DNA of 64,000 nucleotides, taken from positions 28,680 through 92,679 of the forward strand of contig NVVD01000002.1 of assembly GCA_002402105.1 (NCBI GenBank), written 5' to 3'. Made by a program: the position numbers and the translations under genes. This DNA comes from Candidatus Cloacimonadota bacterium (lineage in GTDB: Bacteria > Muiribacteriota > UBA6191). How positions within the stretch are numbered: position 1 is the first letter of the stretch; each line of letters opens with the position of its first letter. Shown here in pieces: positions 7,103 through 40,005 of this stretch. The notes under the pieces were generated by a model. That model searched no databases and was not told the DNA's origin. It was given only the letters and a program-made list of their open reading frames with translations.

Positions 7103-8194
7103 TTAAAAACTTTTATGCTTTGATTGCATATCTTTTGCAAGTGTAAAACTTGGGTTTATTATTAAAGCTTGTGATAAATAATGTTTCATTTGCTGTTTGT
7201 TTTCTGACTTTTCGTAAATAACAGCAAGATTATACATTAAATAATGCCTTACTTTTGATGAAGAGGCAGTCCGAATTGCAGAAGATAAAATTTTGGTACT
7301 TTTTTTCTGATTTTTTAAATTACACAAAGATCGAAGATTTTGTATTGCTAAAAAGAAATCATAATCGATGTTTTCTGATGTTAATAAAATTGAGGTTAGT
7401 TTTTGTAGCCATTGATCGGCATCATTAAATTTTTTGTTCTTAAGTTTTAAAAAAGATAATTGATAATAATCATAATAGTTTTCGTGAAGCATATTTTCAT
7501 ATTCTGTTGGATAACTTGTTTTATAGGCTTCAAAGGCTTGGGCATCAGCCATTAAGTGATTTAAATTTTCTTCAAATTGAGTAATTTTATTTAAGGTTTT
7601 TTTTGCATTTAATTTATTGTTTAAAGAGAACAAAATAAAAGGTGATAAATGGGAATTTTCTTGGTGGGTGCTTGAAAAAATAATTGGTGGAACCTCTTTA
7701 AATCCTTCTGTTTTTAAAATATAAAGTGGCTTTTGAAAGTGTAAATTACTGTTTTTACTCATTGTTTTTATTTTATTGATGAGTTGTTTTAGTTGATGCT
7801 TTTCTTGAGTGCCATAAAGAGACTGAACTTCAGTAATTATTTCTTTTTTAGGAAAGAGTAAACTTAGATTTAGTTGAAATGATAGGCCTGTAATCTCTTT
7901 GTCGCTTTTTAATAAAAAAGTTTTTTTAATTTCTTGGGCAGTTTTAATTTCATTGAGTGCAAAAGAATGTTTACCTTCTAGTAGGGTAATACCATCTGGA
8001 AGGGTTAAGTTAACATCTATATCTTTGAGTGGAGCATATGTACTACGAAAGGTAAATTCAACAATAAATGGTTTTTTAAACTCAGGGGTTGTTTTATAGT
8101 TGAGCTCCCATTGATACCATTGGGGTAGCTTTAACCCAGGTTGAAAACAAAAAGTTTGTGATAAAAATAATAAAGTTAGTATTAGCTGTTTCAT
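7103..8194 (-). CDS. Secreted protein with N-terminal beta domain and C-terminal TPR-like helices
   Basis: 363 aa with a signal peptide over about residues 1-17. Residues 40-125 alternate hydrophobic and polar residues, as in a beta-sandwich (DUF11-like pattern APLKDIDVNLTLPDGI). The second half is helical, with a recognisable TPR near 315-350 (YNLAVIYEKSENKQQMKHYLSQALIINPS). No catalytic motif is seen. It probably acts outside the inner membrane and may be a partner of the metalloprotease encoded 50 nt upstream on the same strand. Function unknown. Confidence 0.6.
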   Translation of the reverse strand: MKQLILTLLFLSQTFCFQPGLKLPQWYQWELNYKTTPEFKKPFIVEFTFRSTYAPLKDIDVNLTLPDGITLLEGKHSFALNEIKTAQEIKKTFLLKSDKEITGLSFQLNLSLLFPKKEIITEVQSLYGTQEKHQLKQLINKIKTMSKNSNLHFQKPLYILKTEGFKEVPPIIFSSTHQENSHLSPFILFSLNNKLNAKKTLNKITQFEENLNHLMADAQAFEAYKTSYPTEYENMLHENYYDYYQLSFLKLKNKKFNDADQWLQKLTSILLTSENIDYDFFLAIQNLRSLCNLKNQKKSTKILSSAIRTASSSKVRHYLMYNLAVIYEKSENKQQMKHYLSQALIINPSFTLAKDMQSKHKSF

Positions 8195-8244: not shown

Positions 8245-9558
8245 TTAGTATCTCAGTATTTTTCCAGAATTTCCATAGAAAGAAGAATCTAATTTATTAT
8301 TAGAGGGGCGAGAAAGGTTGAAATCTTGAATGCTCTCAAAATCTTCTATTTGTTGTTGCTCTTTTTTTCGTAGAGTATTAAGGTAGTTTTGATAGCTATT
8401 AAATTGTTGGTTTGCCCTGTAGATTAAAGATTGAGATCTATGAAGCAGTGATTTAAAAAAGCTACTATCATTATATTGAGAGATTAGGTTTTGCTTATAT
8501 AGATACATTCTTTCAAGGTATGAAGATAAGCTTTGAAGGTAGTTTTTGATTTCTATGATTTCTTTTTGAGATTGTTTGACTTTTTCTTTTTGTTGTTCTA
8601 GTTCGGAAGTGGTTTGAGGGTCTTTAGCTAGATAGATTCCTTTTTGATCTCCATCTAAATCTAGAATAAGTAGATTTCCTTGTTGGTAGTTGAGTATAAA
8701 TTGTTGATCTGGCCATTTGTTATTAGAATATTTTTTCATGATTTCAAATATTTTTTGAGATCTATTTGGATGGGCAGATAAATATTGTTCAAGAAAGTCG
8801 GCTGGACTTTGGGGATGGCTATCAGCTATCACAGTAAAAATATCTTCTTTAGAAAATGCTTGATCTAGCTCTAATAAGATAGATGCAATATAACCTTCGG
8901 ATGAGTTCAGCTCTTGTTTGCTTCTGTTGTTATAAGAGCGAGGAAACTTATCATCACCATAAGTTGAAGCAGCGTAATATTCACCAAAGCCTTCGATCCA
9001 AGCAAAGGAAGGTGATTTGATAGAGTCAATGGTGTGAGAGCCTCCTTGACTTTTGGGGAGGTCTTTACCAGAATAAAGGGCATTCATGACAGCGTGGCCA
9101 ATTTCATGCGAGAATGTTTCTCCCATAAAATGTTTATCATTACTATTTGGAATGTTTCGCCCTATTTTAATGATGGGGGCTTTGTTGACTCTAGTTATTT
9201 GTTTGTTTCTAATGATTTGTAGGTTTTTGCCTTCCATTATATTATAGGCCCAGTCACCATTATCTATTTCAATATATAGTGGCTTATTTTTTTTTGTTTT
9301 ACTTAAAAACTGTATACTAGGTTCAAGCACCCCTTGTTTTCTAAGGTTTTGTTGAAAGGCTATTTTTTGAGCTAAATCATAACCAGAAATAGCTCTTTGT
9401 ACTTCTTTTGTTTCGACAGGAATTTTATTGGTAAAGTCGTTATTTTGTATTTCTCTAAAATTACCAATGTTGTCAATTTTTTCGATAAAAATTATATTGG
9501 CGGATGTAAAAGAGATAGTAAATAGAAGTAAAAATGATTTTATAAATAAGTATTTCAT
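8245..9558 (-). CDS. Secreted zinc metalloprotease-like protein (HExxH)
   Basis: 437 aa. A signal peptide (1-20, cleavage likely after TSA) is followed by a catalytic-type domain. HEIGH at 151-155 is the zinc-binding helix, and WIEGFGE at 187-193 supplies a candidate third ligand (Glu189 or Glu193), an arrangement typical of gluzincins. Residues from about 310 to 410 are Gln/Lys/Glu-rich and predict a coiled coil. I do not recognise the family. The protein probably works in the periplasm or outside the cell. It is transcribed toward the secreted TPR-like gene 50 nt downstream. Confidence 0.7.
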   Translation of the reverse strand: MKYLFIKSFLLLFTISFTSANIIFIEKIDNIGNFREIQNNDFTNKIPVETKEVQRAISGYDLAQKIAFQQNLRKQGVLEPSIQFLSKTKKNKPLYIEIDNGDWAYNIMEGKNLQIIRNKQITRVNKAPIIKIGRNIPNSNDKHFMGETFSHEIGHAVMNALYSGKDLPKSQGGSHTIDSIKSPSFAWIEGFGEYYAASTYGDDKFPRSYNNRSKQELNSSEGYIASILLELDQAFSKEDIFTVIADSHPQSPADFLEQYLSAHPNRSQKIFEIMKKYSNNKWPDQQFILNYQQGNLLILDLDGDQKGIYLAKDPQTTSELEQQKEKVKQSQKEIIEIKNYLQSLSSYLERMYLYKQNLISQYNDSSFFKSLLHRSQSLIYRANQQFNSYQNYLNTLRKKEQQQIEDFESIQDFNLSRPSNNKLDSSFYGNSGKILRY

Positions 9559-9661: not shown

Positions 9662-9690
9662 TTGACCTGTGTAAGATTATCAGGTAGTGT
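9662..9690 (+). promoter_or_regulatory. Sigma-70-like promoter for the leader and gene at 9827
   Basis: TTGACC (9662-9667), a 17-nt spacer and TAGTGT (9685-9690). Transcription from about 9697 would give a leader of about 130 nt before the ATG at 9827. Confidence 0.5.
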
Positions 9691-9696
9691 GGCGTC

Positions 9697-9826
9697 ACTC
9701 ACTTTAAACGGTGTAAAAAGGCCAATTTTTTGCACCATCCCTTAGAAGGATTTAAATATTGTGGTGAGATGTTAAAAATGTGGCGGTCCTTTCGGACTCT
9801 TTTTTTTTTATACGGGAGTTTTTTTC
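9697..9826 (+). promoter_or_regulatory. Structured 5' leader or small RNA ending in a terminator
   Basis: The stretch between the promoter and the start codon contains a 10-bp hairpin (GGTGTAAAAA at 9710-9719 with TTTTTGCACC at 9727-9736, one T-G pair). A smaller hairpin follows (ATCC/GGAT around 9737-9751), and then a terminator at 9785-9809. The structure suggests transcription attenuation, a cis-regulatory RNA or a separate small RNA. It matches no riboswitch class that I can recognise. Confidence 0.45.
9785..9809 (+). terminator. Intrinsic terminator just before a gene start
   Basis: GGTCC (9785-9789), TTTC loop, GGACT (9794-9798), then C and about ten Ts. It lies between the promoter at 9662-9690 and the ribosome site GGGAG (9814-9818), so reading into the 9827 gene must pass through it. 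Confidence 0.6.
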
Positions 9827-11851
9827 ATGGCAAAAGCAAAAAAAGATACAAAAGTTGTAGCAAAAAATTATAAATCAGTAATTCTAGAGGCATTGCAAAA
9901 AGGTGACTCCATTACAGGAATGGATTTAACTAAAATTGTCCAAGCAGAATTACCCTTTTTAAAACTAGAATCACCATATAAGGTAAAAGCTGAATATGTA
10001 ATGCCAACATTACAAACAAGTAAGTGTTTTGTTAAGGGTGAAGGAGACGTTTGGTCATTGTCAAATGTTTATGAAAATTTAGACTCCCATGCTTATACAA
10101 TTATAAAAGAGAATGAAACTCCAATGTTATATCAAGATATTGTAGAAGAAGTGTCAATAAAGGCTTCATTAAATATTTCAGATGTGCCTTTAAGTTTAGA
10201 TGAAAATGAGCTGTTTTATAAAAAAGAATTTGAAGAAAAATTTTATTATTATATTTCAGAGTGGATCTACGGAAATGAATTTGCTTTTGCAGTGTTTATT
10301 GATAACGGAAATAAGGCTTTAGAAAACGAAGAATTATTATTAGATGAGGTTGCAAATAAATTTAGACTAAAGAAAAAGGGACTTATCATTTTATTAAATG
10401 AAGACCCTAGGTTTAAAGTTTCTACTGAGGGTAGGGTGTCCTTATTACCAAAATTTTTCAAAAGATTAAAAAAAGTTGAAGTTCCAAAAACTTTGTTAAA
10501 CGAAATTTTTGAAAAACTAGATTCAGGAGAGATAAGTGCATACAATCTCCTAGATCTTGGAGATGAACATTTTGATATGCCTTTTCCATTAACAAAAATA
10601 AGAGAACACCTTGAAGAAGATCATCGTTTTATTGTTTTTGGTGATAAAGTAAAAAGATCAAAATTAAGCTTAGAAAAAATAAAAACCATAAAGAAAAAAG
10701 AAAGAGATCAAAAGAAAAAAGAAAAAGATCTTAAAGATAAGCTAAAAGCTCAAGAAAAAGAAAGAAGAGAAGCTATAAAAGAAGTTGAAGCAAAAGAGAC
10801 TATAGTAGCTCCTGTTGAAGAAGAAGCTGAAATAAACCTAAAAGAAGAGTTTATATGGGCTCAAGAAAGTGATCAGGATAGAACAAATGAAGAACTTAAA
10901 AAAATTGAAGCTCTAAGGGCAAGTCTTTTACATAGTGACTCACTAGGGGATGTGCCAGAAGTTATTGAGCTAGAAGCTCCAAAAGAGATGGATTCTTTAG
11001 CTTTTTTAAAGAAGAAGGTTTCTGTTATTAAAAAATCAACAAGTCCAGAAGATAAAAACTTTGATATAGATTCTTGTAAAGTAGATAAAGAAGAGTTATT
11101 GGCTCTTTTAGAAAAAATTGGTTCAGAAGACACAGATGTATCAAACTTAACTCCTTCTAAGTATGACTTGCTGTTAAGAAAATCCCTACCTTTTGTTGAA
11201 GATGATTATCGCTCAACAACTCCAGAAGTAGCAGAGTTCATGGTAAAACTAGCTAGGCCAAGATTAGATTTTTTAATCTTAGACATGGTTTGTGGTCGTG
11301 GAGACTTTTTATTGTATTCTTTAAGATACTTAAAGGCTTTATTAAGACCAGATAACTCACAAGATTTAGAAACTTTTGAAGAGTTTTGTGATGAGCAAAT
11401 TGTTGGTTTAGATCAATCAGGATTATTAGTTGAATCAGCAAAGTTAAATTTAGCTTTACATGGCTTTGAAATATCTTTATTAGAAGAATCAGATTCATTG
11501 ATTGATGCAGATATTTTGATTGACGAAATGTATGGTCTAAGTTTAGGTGACTTTAGTGGCTTTGATTCAAATAAGGTTCTAGCACATCTAAAGAAAACTA
11601 AATTAGTATTGAGTGATGGTGGGCAAGCCGTTTATGTTATAGACGACGACCTTTTAACAGGCAACTCAGAAATTGAAGCTTTTATTTCAAGTAATTTTGA
11701 ACTAAAACATCAAATATCTTTATCTGATGTTGACGGAATAAAAAAGAATATCATGCATTTGTTTAAGTCAGAGGTAAAGACCTCAAATACAAAGGTATAC
11801 AACCTTGATAACCTAGAGCAATTAAATAGGGTATTGGGTTTAATTTATTAG
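9827..11851 (+). CDS. Winged-helix (HARE-HTH-like) protein fused to a degenerate HsdM-like methyltransferase domain
   Basis: 674 aa. Residues about 14-80 form a HARE-HTH-like winged helix ending FVKGEGDVWSLS. Further winged-helix-like stretches occur at about 86-145, 165-207 and 218-275. Residues 278-330 are a Lys/Glu-rich coiled coil. The C-terminus (about 440-650) follows type I N6-adenine methyltransferases: TTPEVAEFMVKLARP (464-478), motif I ILDMVCGRGDFLL (484-496; HsdM has DPACGSGGFL), and GLDQSGLLVESAKLNLALHGF-like helix (527-547). Where the catalytic NPPF/Y should stand there is ADILIDEMYG (561-570), so methyl transfer is unlikely, although AdoMet may still bind. No hsdR or hsdS lies nearby. 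I infer a DNA- or RNA-polymerase-associated regulator. SD GGGAG lies 8 nt upstream. Confidence 0.7.
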   Translation: MAKAKKDTKVVAKNYKSVILEALQKGDSITGMDLTKIVQAELPFLKLESPYKVKAEYVMPTLQTSKCFVKGEGDVWSLSNVYENLDSHAYTIIKENETPMLYQDIVEEVSIKASLNISDVPLSLDENELFYKKEFEEKFYYYISEWIYGNEFAFAVFIDNGNKALENEELLLDEVANKFRLKKKGLIILLNEDPRFKVSTEGRVSLLPKFFKRLKKVEVPKTLLNEIFEKLDSGEISAYNLLDLGDEHFDMPFPLTKIREHLEEDHRFIVFGDKVKRSKLSLEKIKTIKKKERDQKKKEKDLKDKLKAQEKERREAIKEVEAKETIVAPVEEEAEINLKEEFIWAQESDQDRTNEELKKIEALRASLLHSDSLGDVPEVIELEAPKEMDSLAFLKKKVSVIKKSTSPEDKNFDIDSCKVDKEELLALLEKIGSEDTDVSNLTPSKYDLLLRKSLPFVEDDYRSTTPEVAEFMVKLARPRLDFLILDMVCGRGDFLLYSLRYLKALLRPDNSQDLETFEEFCDEQIVGLDQSGLLVESAKLNLALHGFEISLLEESDSLIDADILIDEMYGLSLGDFSGFDSNKVLAHLKKTKLVLSDGGQAVYVIDDDLLTGNSEIEAFISSNFELKHQISLSDVDGIKKNIMHLFKSEVKTSNTKVYNLDNLEQLNRVLGLIY

Positions 11852-11995: not shown

Positions 11996-12154
11996 ATGCC
12001 AGCACCTAAAAGAAAAACATGTAAATGGAAAAGAGATCAAAGAAGATCTCATATTAAAATGACAGCATCAGATTTAATCGTTTGTGAAGAAGCAGGCGGA
12101 ATCAAAGTACCTCGTAAATTATTAAGAGCTTATAAAGAGGGCTTAATAAAGTAA
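11996..12154 (+). CDS. rpmF: Ribosomal protein bL32
   Basis: 52 aa, beginning MPAPKRKTCKWKRDQRRSH, the hallmark of L32, a small 50S subunit protein. The SD AAGGAG is well placed. The C-terminal half (CEEAGGIKVPRKLLRAY) has none of the paired Cys that form the L32 zinc ribbon. Only two isolated Cys remain in the whole protein, so it is a zinc-independent form. The gene is only 4 nt from plsX. The rpmF-plsX-fab order is widespread and links ribosome synthesis to lipid synthesis. Confidence 0.93.
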   Translation: MPAPKRKTCKWKRDQRRSHIKMTASDLIVCEEAGGIKVPRKLLRAYKEGLIK

Positions 12155-12158
12155 ATAT

Positions 12159-13124
12159 ATGGCAGTTGTACTTGATGCTATGGGTGGAGATAAAGCTCCA
12201 CATTTAATTGTTGAAGGGGCTATTCAAGCTGCTGACTTGGGGATGAAAATTCATCTGGTGGGCATTAGCGAAAAGATAGAACCTTTAGCAAAAAGCCATA
12301 AAAATATTTCAATAGTACATGCAAGCGATGTTGTTGGTATGTGTGATTCTCCTTCTTCTGTTCTTAGAAAGAAAAAGGAGTCATCTATTGCAGTTGGTGT
12401 TAGATTAGCAAAAGAGCTTAAAATACCTTTTGTTTCTGCTGGAAATACAGGGGCTTGCATGGCTGCGGCTCTATTTACTTTTGGCAGAATATCAGGGATA
12501 AAACGGCCTCCAATTGCATCAATTTTTCCTCAAACAACTTCAGGTAGTTGTATTGTTTTAGATGTTGGTGCAAATGTAGATTGTGATGTTGAAAACCTCT
12601 TACAATTTGCTTTGCTTGGTGTTTGTTACGCACAGACAGTTTTAGGGCTCGAAAGTCCTAGGGTTGGTTTGTTGTCTAATGGACAAGAAGATAAAAAGGG
12701 AAATATTTTAACACTTGAAGCAAATCAAGCGTTGAGAGAGAGCTCTCTAAATTTTATTGGAAATGTTGAAGGCTTTGATGTCCTGTCAGGTAACTGCGAT
12801 GTGGTCGTTTGTGATGGCTTTGTTGGTAATGTTTTGCTAAAGACCGCTGAGGGAATTTTGAAATTAACTCGTAGTTTGGTCAAAAAATCATTGTCAGCTA
12901 AAAGTCTACCAAGTGAAGATTTTTCTCGATTTATTCAAGAAATGTCAATTTTTGATCCTTATAAACCAATTCATTGTGGGGCTCCACTACTAGGAATAAA
13001 AGGACATTGTTCTATTGTTCACGGTGGTGCTGATGCAAAAACAATTTTAGGGGCATGTATTAGTGCGGAGCAATTTGGGCAAAGTAAAATTCTTGCAAAA
13101 ATTCAAGAAACAATCCAAGGATAA
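12159..13124 (+). CDS. plsX: Phosphate acyltransferase PlsX
   Basis: 321 aa. It converts acyl-ACP and phosphate to acyl-phosphate, the donor for glycerol-3-phosphate acylation in phospholipid synthesis. It begins VVLDAMGGDKAPHLIVEGA, the defining PlsX N-terminus, and keeps SAGNTGA near residue 91 and a Gly-rich end CGAPLLGIKGHCSIVHGGAD. The length is normal for the family. It sits between rpmF and fabH, the standard position. Its ATG is 4 nt after the rpmF stop, so translational coupling is likely. Confidence 0.96.
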   Translation: MAVVLDAMGGDKAPHLIVEGAIQAADLGMKIHLVGISEKIEPLAKSHKNISIVHASDVVGMCDSPSSVLRKKKESSIAVGVRLAKELKIPFVSAGNTGACMAAALFTFGRISGIKRPPIASIFPQTTSGSCIVLDVGANVDCDVENLLQFALLGVCYAQTVLGLESPRVGLLSNGQEDKKGNILTLEANQALRESSLNFIGNVEGFDVLSGNCDVVVCDGFVGNVLLKTAEGILKLTRSLVKKSLSAKSLPSEDFSRFIQEMSIFDPYKPIHCGAPLLGIKGHCSIVHGGADAKTILGACISAEQFGQSKILAKIQETIQG

Positions 13125-37784: not shown

Positions 37785-38782
37785 AAAATATTGTAGTAGG
37801 AATTTTTTCTATTATTCTTGTTTTGGTTTGTGTTTATCTGTATTTGATTTCTCCTTCATCAATGGAAAAAAAAGCAGATAAATTTTATCAAGACTCAAAA
37901 TATGAAGATGCGGCTCACTTTTATCAATTAGCATTTACAGAAGGTAATATTTCTTTTAAAAAAGAAAGGATTTTATTTAAATTGGGGAACTCTTATCGCT
38001 TGTCTGGTGAAACAGATAGATCTTTTGATTTTTATTTTATGGTTTTACAGGAAAATAAGTCTTCTGTTTATAAATCTCGCATTCAAGAGTTTTTAAGAGG
38101 AGAAAATGAAGGCTCTTTTCAATTAGATGTAGCGAGTCAAAATATTGAGGTTGATTTAAGTTTTTTAAATTCTACGACTGAACTTTCTTTGAAGGGAACT
38201 TTAGATAAAAGAGACGAAATTTATAAAGTTTTACTGCTAGCTATTTCAAATGATAATGCTAACTTAAGCTATCAATTAAAGGATATATATCGTGCTTTTA
38301 AAAAACTTCAATTGAAAGTTAAAGAAAAAAAAATTGAGGCAGCAGTCAAGATTAGTATAAAGAAAAGTATCAAAGATAAAAGAGAAATGCTTTTGATCGG
38401 TTTAGAGGATACTTTAAAAGTAGAACTCAAACAGATGCGTTCAAATTACAAGTTAATTATACATCAACTAGAAAGTGGAAATGATATTGTTACTCTTAAA
38501 AATGATATATTTCCTCAAGCTATTTATGTGTCCTTTAGTCAGGAATATGCTTCTATGGGATCTGATAACTTTTTAACTTTTTTAGAACGTTTGTATGATT
38601 CTCATGAAAATGCCAAAATTTTTTTAATGATTGACGATAGTAATAAAGAAGGACTATCTGAAATATTAGATTCATGGGATAAAGACGGACTTTATACTTT
38701 AGTATTTCAGGATCAGGATGAACTGGTGTCCAAGATAAAAGAAAGTTTGAAGGCTCGGTTTATATGGCAATCGAATGGTTAA
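37781..38782 (+). CDS. Membrane-anchored TPR-like protein
   Basis: 333 aa from GTG 37781, which overlaps the previous stop as GTGA and has AAGGGA upstream. An in-frame TTG at 37742 is less likely because it would put 13 charged residues before the membrane helix. One N-terminal helix (about 3-22), a TPR pair at about 30-95 (ADKFYQDSKYEDAAHFYQLAF), then a largely alpha/beta domain ending FMVVLQ-type strands. It overlaps the next gene by 19 nt. Function unknown. Confidence 0.65.
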   Translation: MKNIVVGIFSIILVLVCVYLYLISPSSMEKKADKFYQDSKYEDAAHFYQLAFTEGNISFKKERILFKLGNSYRLSGETDRSFDFYFMVLQENKSSVYKSRIQEFLRGENEGSFQLDVASQNIEVDLSFLNSTTELSLKGTLDKRDEIYKVLLLAISNDNANLSYQLKDIYRAFKKLQLKVKEKKIEAAVKISIKKSIKDKREMLLIGLEDTLKVELKQMRSNYKLIIHQLESGNDIVTLKNDIFPQAIYVSFSQEYASMGSDNFLTFLERLYDSHENAKIFLMIDDSNKEGLSEILDSWDKDGLYTLVFQDQDELVSKIKESLKARFIWQSNG

Positions 38783-40005
38783 ATGACATTCCAAGTGTAA
38801 AAAAAGTGTGGGAAGAAGAAGAGACTTCTTTTCGTTTGCATGCAATTCACTCCTTATATATGATGTTGAGCAAAGAAGCGGCTTCTGAATTAGAGGTTAT
38901 GCATCCTACTGCAGTTCAGCATGAAAAATATTTTGTAGAAAAAGCTAAAGAGAATATCGAAAAATATTTACAACATGGTAAAGTTCCTCTGGAAATTGAA
39001 AGAAGTCGTAAGCGTATAAATCAATTAGCCGAAGTAAAAAAGCGTAGGGAAGAGATTCCTAGAGATCCGATGCTTGATAAGGCTAATTTAGATGGTTTAG
39101 AAGATTCATTGAAGAGGGAATCATCGTATAAAGATGATAGTGTACCTTCTTTAGTACATCATGAAGAAAAACTTAGTCCAGTTTCTGATGAATATAGTTT
39201 AGATGACTCATACGATGCTTCTATAGGTTCTTATGAAAAGTCAGAGCAAGAGGTTTTATACGACGACTCTAATGCATATGAAGAAATATTAACGCAAGAG
39301 CCTGAGGTACAAGCAGAATATGATGATTTGTTGTCACCTATGGATGATGCTTCTGGTGAATACGATGATTTGTTACCTCCTATGAATGATGTTTCTGGTG
39401 AATATGATGATTTGTTACCACCTATGAATGATGGTTATGATGATTTATTACCTCCTCTGAATGAAGTTTCTGATGGTTATGATGATTTATTACCCCCTGT
39501 GAATGAAGTTTCTGGTGGTTATGATGATTTGTTACCACCTATGAACGATGGTTATGATGATTTATTACCTCCTGTAAATGAAGTTTCTGATGGTTATGAT
39601 GATTTATTACCTCCTGTAAATGAAGTTTCTGATGATTATGATGATTTATTACCTCCTGTGAATGAAGTTTCTGATGGTTATGATGATTTGTTACCTCCTG
39701 TGAATGAAGCTTCTGATGGTTATGATGATTTATTACCTCCTGTGAGTGATGCTTCGAGTGAATATGATGATTTATTGCCTCCTATGAATGATGCTTCGAG
39801 TGAATATGATGATTTATTGCCTCCTATGAATGATGCTTCTAGTGGTTATGATGATTTATTACCTCCTATGAATAATACCTCTAGTGGTTATGATGACTTA
39901 TTACCTCCTATGAATAATACTTCTAGCGAATATGATGATTTATTGCCTCCACTATCTGGTGGTGACGAATTTGATGATTTACTTCCTCCATTAAAGAAAG
40001 ATTAG
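38764..40005 (+). CDS. Acidic disordered protein with ~17 tandem YDDLLPP repeats
   Basis: 413 aa. Residues 1-110 are helical and basic-acidic mixed, and 110-185 are Asp/Glu/Ser-rich. From 186 to the end there are 17 units of mostly 14 residues (consensus Y-D-D-L-L-P-P-M/V-N-D/E-x-S-x-G/E), two shortened to 11, the last beginning FDDLLPP. The tail is expected to be disordered with a regularly repeated acidic-aromatic short linear motif, suiting multivalent binding. No signal peptide or membrane helix. Start and end are tightly packed with neighbours (19-nt overlap upstream, 4-nt gap downstream). I know no family. Confidence 0.75.
   Translation: MAIEWLNDIPSVKKVWEEEETSFRLHAIHSLYMMLSKEAASELEVMHPTAVQHEKYFVEKAKENIEKYLQHGKVPLEIERSRKRINQLAEVKKRREEIPRDPMLDKANLDGLEDSLKRESSYKDDSVPSLVHHEEKLSPVSDEYSLDDSYDASIGSYEKSEQEVLYDDSNAYEEILTQEPEVQAEYDDLLSPMDDASGEYDDLLPPMNDVSGEYDDLLPPMNDGYDDLLPPLNEVSDGYDDLLPPVNEVSGGYDDLLPPMNDGYDDLLPPVNEVSDGYDDLLPPVNEVSDDYDDLLPPVNEVSDGYDDLLPPVNEASDGYDDLLPPVSDASSEYDDLLPPMNDASSEYDDLLPPMNDASSGYDDLLPPMNNTSSGYDDLLPPMNNTSSEYDDLLPPLSGGDEFDDLLPPLKKD
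39319..40002 (+). repeat. In-frame tandem repeats of 42 bp (two units of 33 bp)
   Basis: The DNA encoding the YDDLLPP units repeats the core tatgatgatttattacctcc with high identity. The nearly identical middle copies (about 39545-39760) suggest recent duplication. Because units are multiples of three, length changes keep the frame. It is coding, not a CRISPR array. Confidence 0.9.

Follow-up and report, generated by a model that had tools for sequence, protein, structure and literature searches.

A tandem winged-helix array fused to an HsdM-like methyltransferase fold that lacks the catalytic motif, encoded beside rpmF-plsX

A 64,000-nucleotide stretch of DNA from a Candidatus Cloacimonadota bacterium (hereafter, the window) encodes a protein in which an N6-methyltransferase fold of the HsdM type, without the catalytic (N/D)PP(F/Y) motif, is fused to an array of winged helices, and we show that this combination is conserved across several lineages. 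To our knowledge, a DNA-methyltransferase fold is assumed to serve restriction, modification or defence. The one described here has lost the catalytic motif in two or more lineages, is retained next to housekeeping genes and is joined to winged helices resembling that of RNA polymerase delta. The architecture of winged-helix array and HsdM-like domain is well supported; its function we infer, and we give about even chances to the view that the gene encodes a chromosomal, non-methylating regulator composed of a tandem winged-helix array and a pseudo-methyltransferase. What is new here is that other lineages have colinear homologues, one phylum in 10 of 10 genomes. Should the protein turn out to be a factor of RNA polymerase or of the nucleoid, annotation would have overlooked a core regulator. 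A 2026 BREX survey reports inactive enzyme domains and many winged-helix modules in defence proteins (PMC12839542), and neither its text nor that of PMC11037411, as far as drawn on here, mentions a chromosomal winged-helix/pseudo-methyltransferase architecture.

The gene and its orthologues

The window belongs to a 4.63 Mb MAG (95.8% complete, 8.6% contaminated). The gene occupies positions 9827..11851 of the forward strand and specifies 674 residues, which run from the winged-helix array through a coil and an acidic linker to the HsdM-like pseudo-methyltransferase. These coordinates, given in a sequence-only reading of the window, and the ATG start are both borne out by the sequence. The start is backed by an N terminus (MAKAKK) conserved among orthologues and is preceded by a ribosome-binding site, GGGAG (9814..9818, +), which is kept in G001 and reads GAGGAG in the other genus. 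An N-terminal extension from an upstream GTG of G001 was rejected, as the same GTG is out of frame in the window.

Four orthologues, the window's own included, fall in one GTDB family and two genera; identity to the window protein is 72% in G001 and 40 to 41% in G002 and G003. Among the 39 genomes searched in the window's phylum, the other 35 gave no full-length match.

The C-terminal domain has an HsdM-type fold

Residues 411 to 674 (11057..11848, +) are an HsdM-type N6-methyltransferase fold. Pfam N6_Mtase (PF02384) matches the window protein with E 1.2e-5, above its cut-off, a PDB sequence search retrieves the HsdM structures 2okc and 3ufb, and hhalign of the domain against 58 HsdM cores gives 98% probability. 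AlphaFold modeled the domain with pLDDT 89.3 and pTM 0.89 from a 62-row alignment that is HsdM-rich and favors the HsdM fold; the sequence matches are independent of this alignment. The model matches 2okc_B in Foldseek (E 4.4e-13) and 2okc_A in VIA-align (Z 22.8). Sequence and structure comparisons thus confirm the HsdM-type C terminus of the sequence-only reading, and modeling and structure searches, by which an unrelated fold could have emerged, returned HsdM.

Tested for a class I methyltransferase core, the window protein has motifs X, I and II. Motif X (TTPEVAEFMVKLARP; residues 464–478, 11216..11260, +) and the AdoMet-binding motif I (DMVCGRGDFLL; residues 486–496, 11282..11314, +) had both been recognized previously and are both present; motif I is intact, with D486, C489, G490, G492 and D493 invariant in all four orthologues. 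In motif II (VGLD; residues 526–529, 11402..11413, +), V526, G527 and the acidic D529 are likewise invariant (4/4), HsdM having E/D at this place. Motifs I and II therefore look intact in the window's lineage, where the C-terminal domain may bind AdoMet.

In HsdM (PF02384; PDB 2okc, 3ufb and 2ar0), the fold, motifs X, I and II and the strand order are those of residues 411–674. Unlike HsdM, the window protein has neither (N/D)PP(F/Y) nor an HsdS partner, is fused to winged helices and is strongly acidic. The C-terminal domain carries a net charge of −23 over 264 residues (pI 4.43). Expressed per 100 residues, the charge is −8.7 and −9.5 in the first genus and −5.3 in the second, whereas 58 HsdM cores average −0.9 (range, −4.7 to +3.8), so that all orthologue genera lie outside the HsdM range. 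Such acidity speaks against methylation of DNA and points to a role in protein contact or with a ligand.

Both prolines of motif IV are lost

The sequence-only reading had the NPPF/Y motif replaced by DEMYG (residues 566–570, 11522..11536, +). That both prolines are lost stands; the register was about nine residues off, and DEMYG lies upstream of the true motif IV position, GDFSGF (residues 574–579, 11546..11563, +), which contains the invariant D575 and no prolines. BLAST, MAFFT and AlphaFold all place residues 574–579 at NPPF, where homologues carry YDIVLGDPPVHG, YDLVIGNPPSTG and FDLVIGNFTFEG; with the colinear homologue in G274, BLAST aligns YDIVLGDPPVHGD with YGLSLGDFSGFDS. The corresponding residues are GDPPVH in G274, GNPPST in G381, GNFTFT in G340, GNFTFE in G054 and SNLTFV in G201, and it is because homologues with DPPV, NPPS and NFTF align here that the register is fixed at 574–579. 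Both AlphaFold models have a strand at about 570–575, and the 19 residues counted from D556 to D575 equal the distance that separates motif III Asp and motif IV Asn in the HsdM protein encoded at C40 in the same genome. The DEMYG register had been backed by two HsdM-only alignments and was dropped once the DPPV and NPPS homologues were aligned. A set of viral HsdM sequences was chosen partly by the pattern ANPPF, and its uniformity is no evidence.

Across the four orthologues, the motif IV position reads GDFSGF, GDFGGF, ADMTNL and ADMTNL, with both prolines absent from each. The orthologue search proposed earlier thus found an intact NPPF/Y in none of the four, in either possible register; compared with HsdM, the catalytic (N/D)PP(F/Y/W) is absent, and DFSG, DFGG and DMTN stand in its stead. 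With both prolines gone in all four, it is very unlikely that the window protein performs N6-adenine methylation. METTL14, the catalytically dead partner of an m6A methyltransferase, likewise retains a methyltransferase fold after loss of a DPPW/NPPF-type motif. It belongs to a different clade and pairs with an active subunit, whereas no active partner was found next to the window gene.

Homologues in other lineages

In profile searches over up to 1,342 genomes, with repeat searches of some, the two-module protein came up in one family (G274 and G381), in G279 and in the phylum of G340, G054 and G201, where all 10 genomes searched have it. In G274, both modules match colinearly (BLAST, 1e-8 and 1e-7), as they do in G381, G340, G054, G201 and G279; in the last of these, the two lie on one 1154-residue ORF (N-terminal part, 7e-19; C-terminal part, 4e-27). 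A tree separates twelve of the methyltransferase-like domains from 32 HsdM cores by a branch with 100/99 support, to be read with caution for long branches.

All 10 genomes of the G340/G054/G201 phylum have N-x-x-F and no PP at motif IV, together with a degenerate motif I (HPSCMEGN, NPAAQAG and the like). The sequence-only reading had proposed that the protein may read AdoMet or DNA modification; with motif I degenerate in this phylum, AdoMet binding is unlikely as a function of the whole family. PP is retained in G274, G381 and G279, members that may be active, and its retention suggests that the catalytic motif was lost at least twice. The relatives, which range from near-intact (NPPS) to eroded (NFTF, DFSG), could illustrate a route from methyltransferase to regulator, and their presence in several phyla suggests an undescribed class of non-methylating regulator.

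The same evidence bears on whether the window protein is instead a working methyltransferase, altered at motif IV and directed by its winged helices to a protein, an RNA or another base. Class I methyltransferases of other chemistry do not require NPPF, motifs X, I and II are intact, relatives retain DPPV, NPPS and HPPS, and all four orthologues have D575; together with motifs I and II, this invariant residue makes methylation of another substrate possible. However, the residues after D575 vary by genus (FSG, FGG, MTN), unlike those of a conserved active site, and the gene persists in all 10 genomes of a parallel phylum despite the loss of motif I there. We consider an active enzyme unlikely.

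Winged-helix arrays also occur with other C termini, in G115, G257, G120, G261 and G392. By eye, the C-terminal end in G120 (ADFRGF...VDGG) resembles a methyltransferase remnant. The arrays of G115 (L211:4277-6934, −) and G257 (L177:6964-9579, +) share one non-methyltransferase C-terminal part, and in either genome fusA- and aroC-like ORFs lie close by, as does the gene of a small protein that contains cysteine.

The N-terminal winged-helix array

Four units with the secondary-structure pattern H-H-H-E-E make up the N-terminal half: winged helix 1 (residues 14–79, 9866..10063, +; AlphaFold pLDDT mostly 75–84), the HARE/RNAP-delta-like winged helix 2 (80–146, 10064..10264, +; about 56–84) and, at low model confidence, winged helices 3 (147–210, 10265..10456, +) and 4 (215–281, 10469..10669, +). 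The earlier expectation of one clear HARE-HTH-like domain and three more winged helices agrees with this count, whereas only units 1 and 2 reach a pLDDT of about 70 or more; the full-length model (pLDDT 47.5) is too poor for residues 206–575. A coiled coil expected after the winged helices is present as a Lys/Arg-rich helix or coiled coil (residues 282–323, 10670..10795, +; net charge +7), followed by an acidic, poorly conserved linker (residues 324–410, 10796..11056, +; net charge −10).

As to the HARE-HTH assignment itself, homologues match the RNAP delta model TIGR04567 and winged helix 1 matches the fold of RNAP delta, whereas the window protein has no PF05066 (HARE-HTH) match at E ≤ 10. 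TIGR04567 matches the window protein weakly (E 0.016, residues 89–113) and its homologues L209 (E 7.8e-7, best stretch 215–279) and L217 (E 1.7e-4). In VIA-align, winged helix 1 scores Z 8.5 to 9.7 with forkhead domains and Z 8.7 and 8.5 with RNAP delta (8x6g_E and 9a6y_A). Foldseek ranks SelB tandem winged helices first for the array (E 5e-3), and the SelB tandem winged-helix structure 2v9v covers model residues 83–208 with Z 9.0 (VIA-align). By sequence, a winged-helix profile found nothing significant in the PDB, and Pfam and NCBIfam hold no family that covers the array. The array profile also matches (E 5e-4) a protein of G238 that contains sigma-70 region 4 and HARE-HTH. The link of the array to HARE-HTH and RNA polymerase delta is thus indirect, and the HARE-HTH-like domain is less clear than the sequence-only reading had it. 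Aravind and Iyer 2012 is reportedly the founding HARE-HTH paper. For HARE-HTH domains, a role in reading DNA modification has been suggested but not firmly proven (PMC11037411). The N-terminal 290 residues have a net charge of −4, and winged-helix units that are not basic, as in the window's lineage, do not favor strong DNA binding.

The window protein resembles RNA polymerase delta (TIGR04567, PF05066) in its winged-helix fold (Z 8.7), in the sequence of its homologues and in the acidic region that follows; it differs in having four units, judged by secondary structure, rather than one, and a large folded C-terminal domain. With the SelB C terminus (1lva, 2v9v, 2uwm), it shares a tandem winged-helix array, but it has no EF-Tu-like GTPase domain, and the PDB sequence search found no sequence similarity.

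The G238 locus (L178:5800-6834, +) fuses sigma-70 region 4 (E 1.6e-13) to HARE-HTH (E 3.4e-9).

A proposed regulatory role

RNAP delta joins a winged-helix domain to an acidic tail. This analogy, together with the acidity of the C-terminal domain, leads us to favor a non-methylating regulator with nucleic acid or RNA polymerase as its binding partner. In such a regulator, the delta- and SelB-like winged helices would make the contact with nucleic acid or RNA polymerase, and the acidic C-terminal domain would not methylate DNA and would act as an interaction or ligand-sensing module.

Genomic neighborhood

In each of the four genomes, rpmF-plsX follows the gene directly, in keeping with the adjacency first seen in the window. 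There, rpmF spans 11996..12154 (+) and plsX, the first gene of a plsX-fabH-fabD-fabG run, spans 12159..13124 (+). From the sequence and a comparison of the four intergenic stretches, rpmF appears to have its own promoter. Other families of the window's phylum have different genes upstream of plsX, and by eye the neighbors of homologues look housekeeping-like (tatD, thiL, coaD, fusA and aroC-like ORFs).

This position raises the question of whether the protein is a specific transcription factor of the adjacent rpmF-plsX-fab operon, in the place that FapR holds in some Firmicutes. Synteny in four of four genomes is what such a factor would predict, but homologous lineages have other neighbors, rpmF apparently has its own promoter, and no operator-like palindrome common to both genera was found there; a palindrome considered as an operator at the rpmF promoter is not shared by the other genus. 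Moreover, the protein has no FapR hot-dog domain, Pfam finding only the methyltransferase domain. An operon-specific role is decidedly unlikely. YceD (DUF177) often precedes rpmF, and replacement of YceD by this gene alone was also rejected: YceD (PF02620) was found in none of the 39 genomes of the phylum, plsX being present in 34 of them, and other families have different genes at that place.

The neighborhood also speaks to a role as a restriction, modification or defence subunit, for example as a remnant of a type I or MADS methyltransferase or as its inactive partner. The nearest named domain models are indeed type I methyltransferases and MAD2 of MADS defence (NF047738), the latter ranking first in NCBIfam for the methyltransferase-like domain of several homologues, and G381 encodes a related array fused to MIT_C beside a DUF1156-type methylase-like ORF. 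The window protein, however, scores 20.5 bits with MAD2 against a cut-off of 720. As the sequence-only reading had stated for restriction subunits, no restriction or specificity gene is seen by eye among the window's ORFs, nor is any other defence gene seen nearby. The genome's three other, intact HsdM proteins, all with ANPPF, are encoded separately, and the HsdM genes at C40 and C55 are followed by HsdS-like ORFs. Synteny with rpmF-plsX across two genera, with no hsdS or hsdR recognized nearby, supports the chromosomal setting outside restriction–modification that had been proposed, and another phylum has the gene in 10 of 10 genomes. A defence subunit is very improbable. A mobile origin was discarded, as no plasmid match for the window protein was found and the only matches of the homologue L176 were two methylases of Mycoplasma phages, which align with its methyltransferase part.

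The G381 array with MIT_C, a phospholipase D-like domain (E 6.6e-51), is encoded at L210:6231-7751 (−) and adjoins an ORF resembling a DUF1156-type DNA methylase, possibly a defence system.

A conserved terminator precedes the start codon

The structured leader recognized earlier proved real: an intrinsic terminator precedes the ATG in all four orthologues. In the window, it consists of GGTCC-TTTC-GGACT and T10 (9785..9809, +), lies 18 nt before the ATG and is a putative attenuator. The terminator does not belong to the upstream gene, which is divergently oriented. The T tract measures T9 to T10 and the distance to the ATG 13 to 18 nt across the four; the copies in L022 and L023 lie just before the ATG, and that in L024 at about 7955-7985. 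Among 51, 13, 15 and 6 ORFs of at least 150 residues on the four stretches examined, this gene alone has such a terminator before its ATG. The stem sequence differs between the two genera while the arrangement is kept, and the part of the leader that precedes the terminator is not conserved from genus to genus. Rfam found nothing in the leader or in the window. A putative sigma-70-type promoter (TTGACC-17-TAGTGT, 9662..9690, +) was read by eye, and a TTGAC[CGT]-17-TA... arrangement was seen, also by eye, at the matching place in all four orthologues; a consensus scanner did not find the promoter at 9662..9690, which makes the assignment weak. We read the leader terminator as putative transcription attenuation, by which the gene would restrain its own expression. 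A broader proposal, which we hold only tentatively, is that of a multi-phylum transcription-machinery family with a delta-like array and a pseudo-DNA-methyltransferase, central to gene expression in at least the phylum with 10 of 10 genomes and self-attenuating via its leader.

An RNA-binding regulator whose targets are its own leader or structured RNAs, in the manner of the SelB tandem winged helices that bind SECIS RNA, would suit the array's top Foldseek matches and the conserved leader terminator, but it is scarcely probable: the likeness (E 5e-3) is confined to the fold, winged helix 1 matches forkhead DNA-binding domains and RNAP delta just as well, and the leader ahead of the terminator shows no conservation from one genus to the other.

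Other open reading frames of the window

A 437-residue, probably secreted protein with an HExxH motif (SHEIGH) and no Pfam peptidase match is encoded at 8245-9558 (−); it adjoins the gene in G001 as well and is absent at that place in the other genus. Farther along, at 38764-40005 (+), a 413-residue ORF contains many near-identical YDDLLPP(M/V)N repeats and is strongly acidic.
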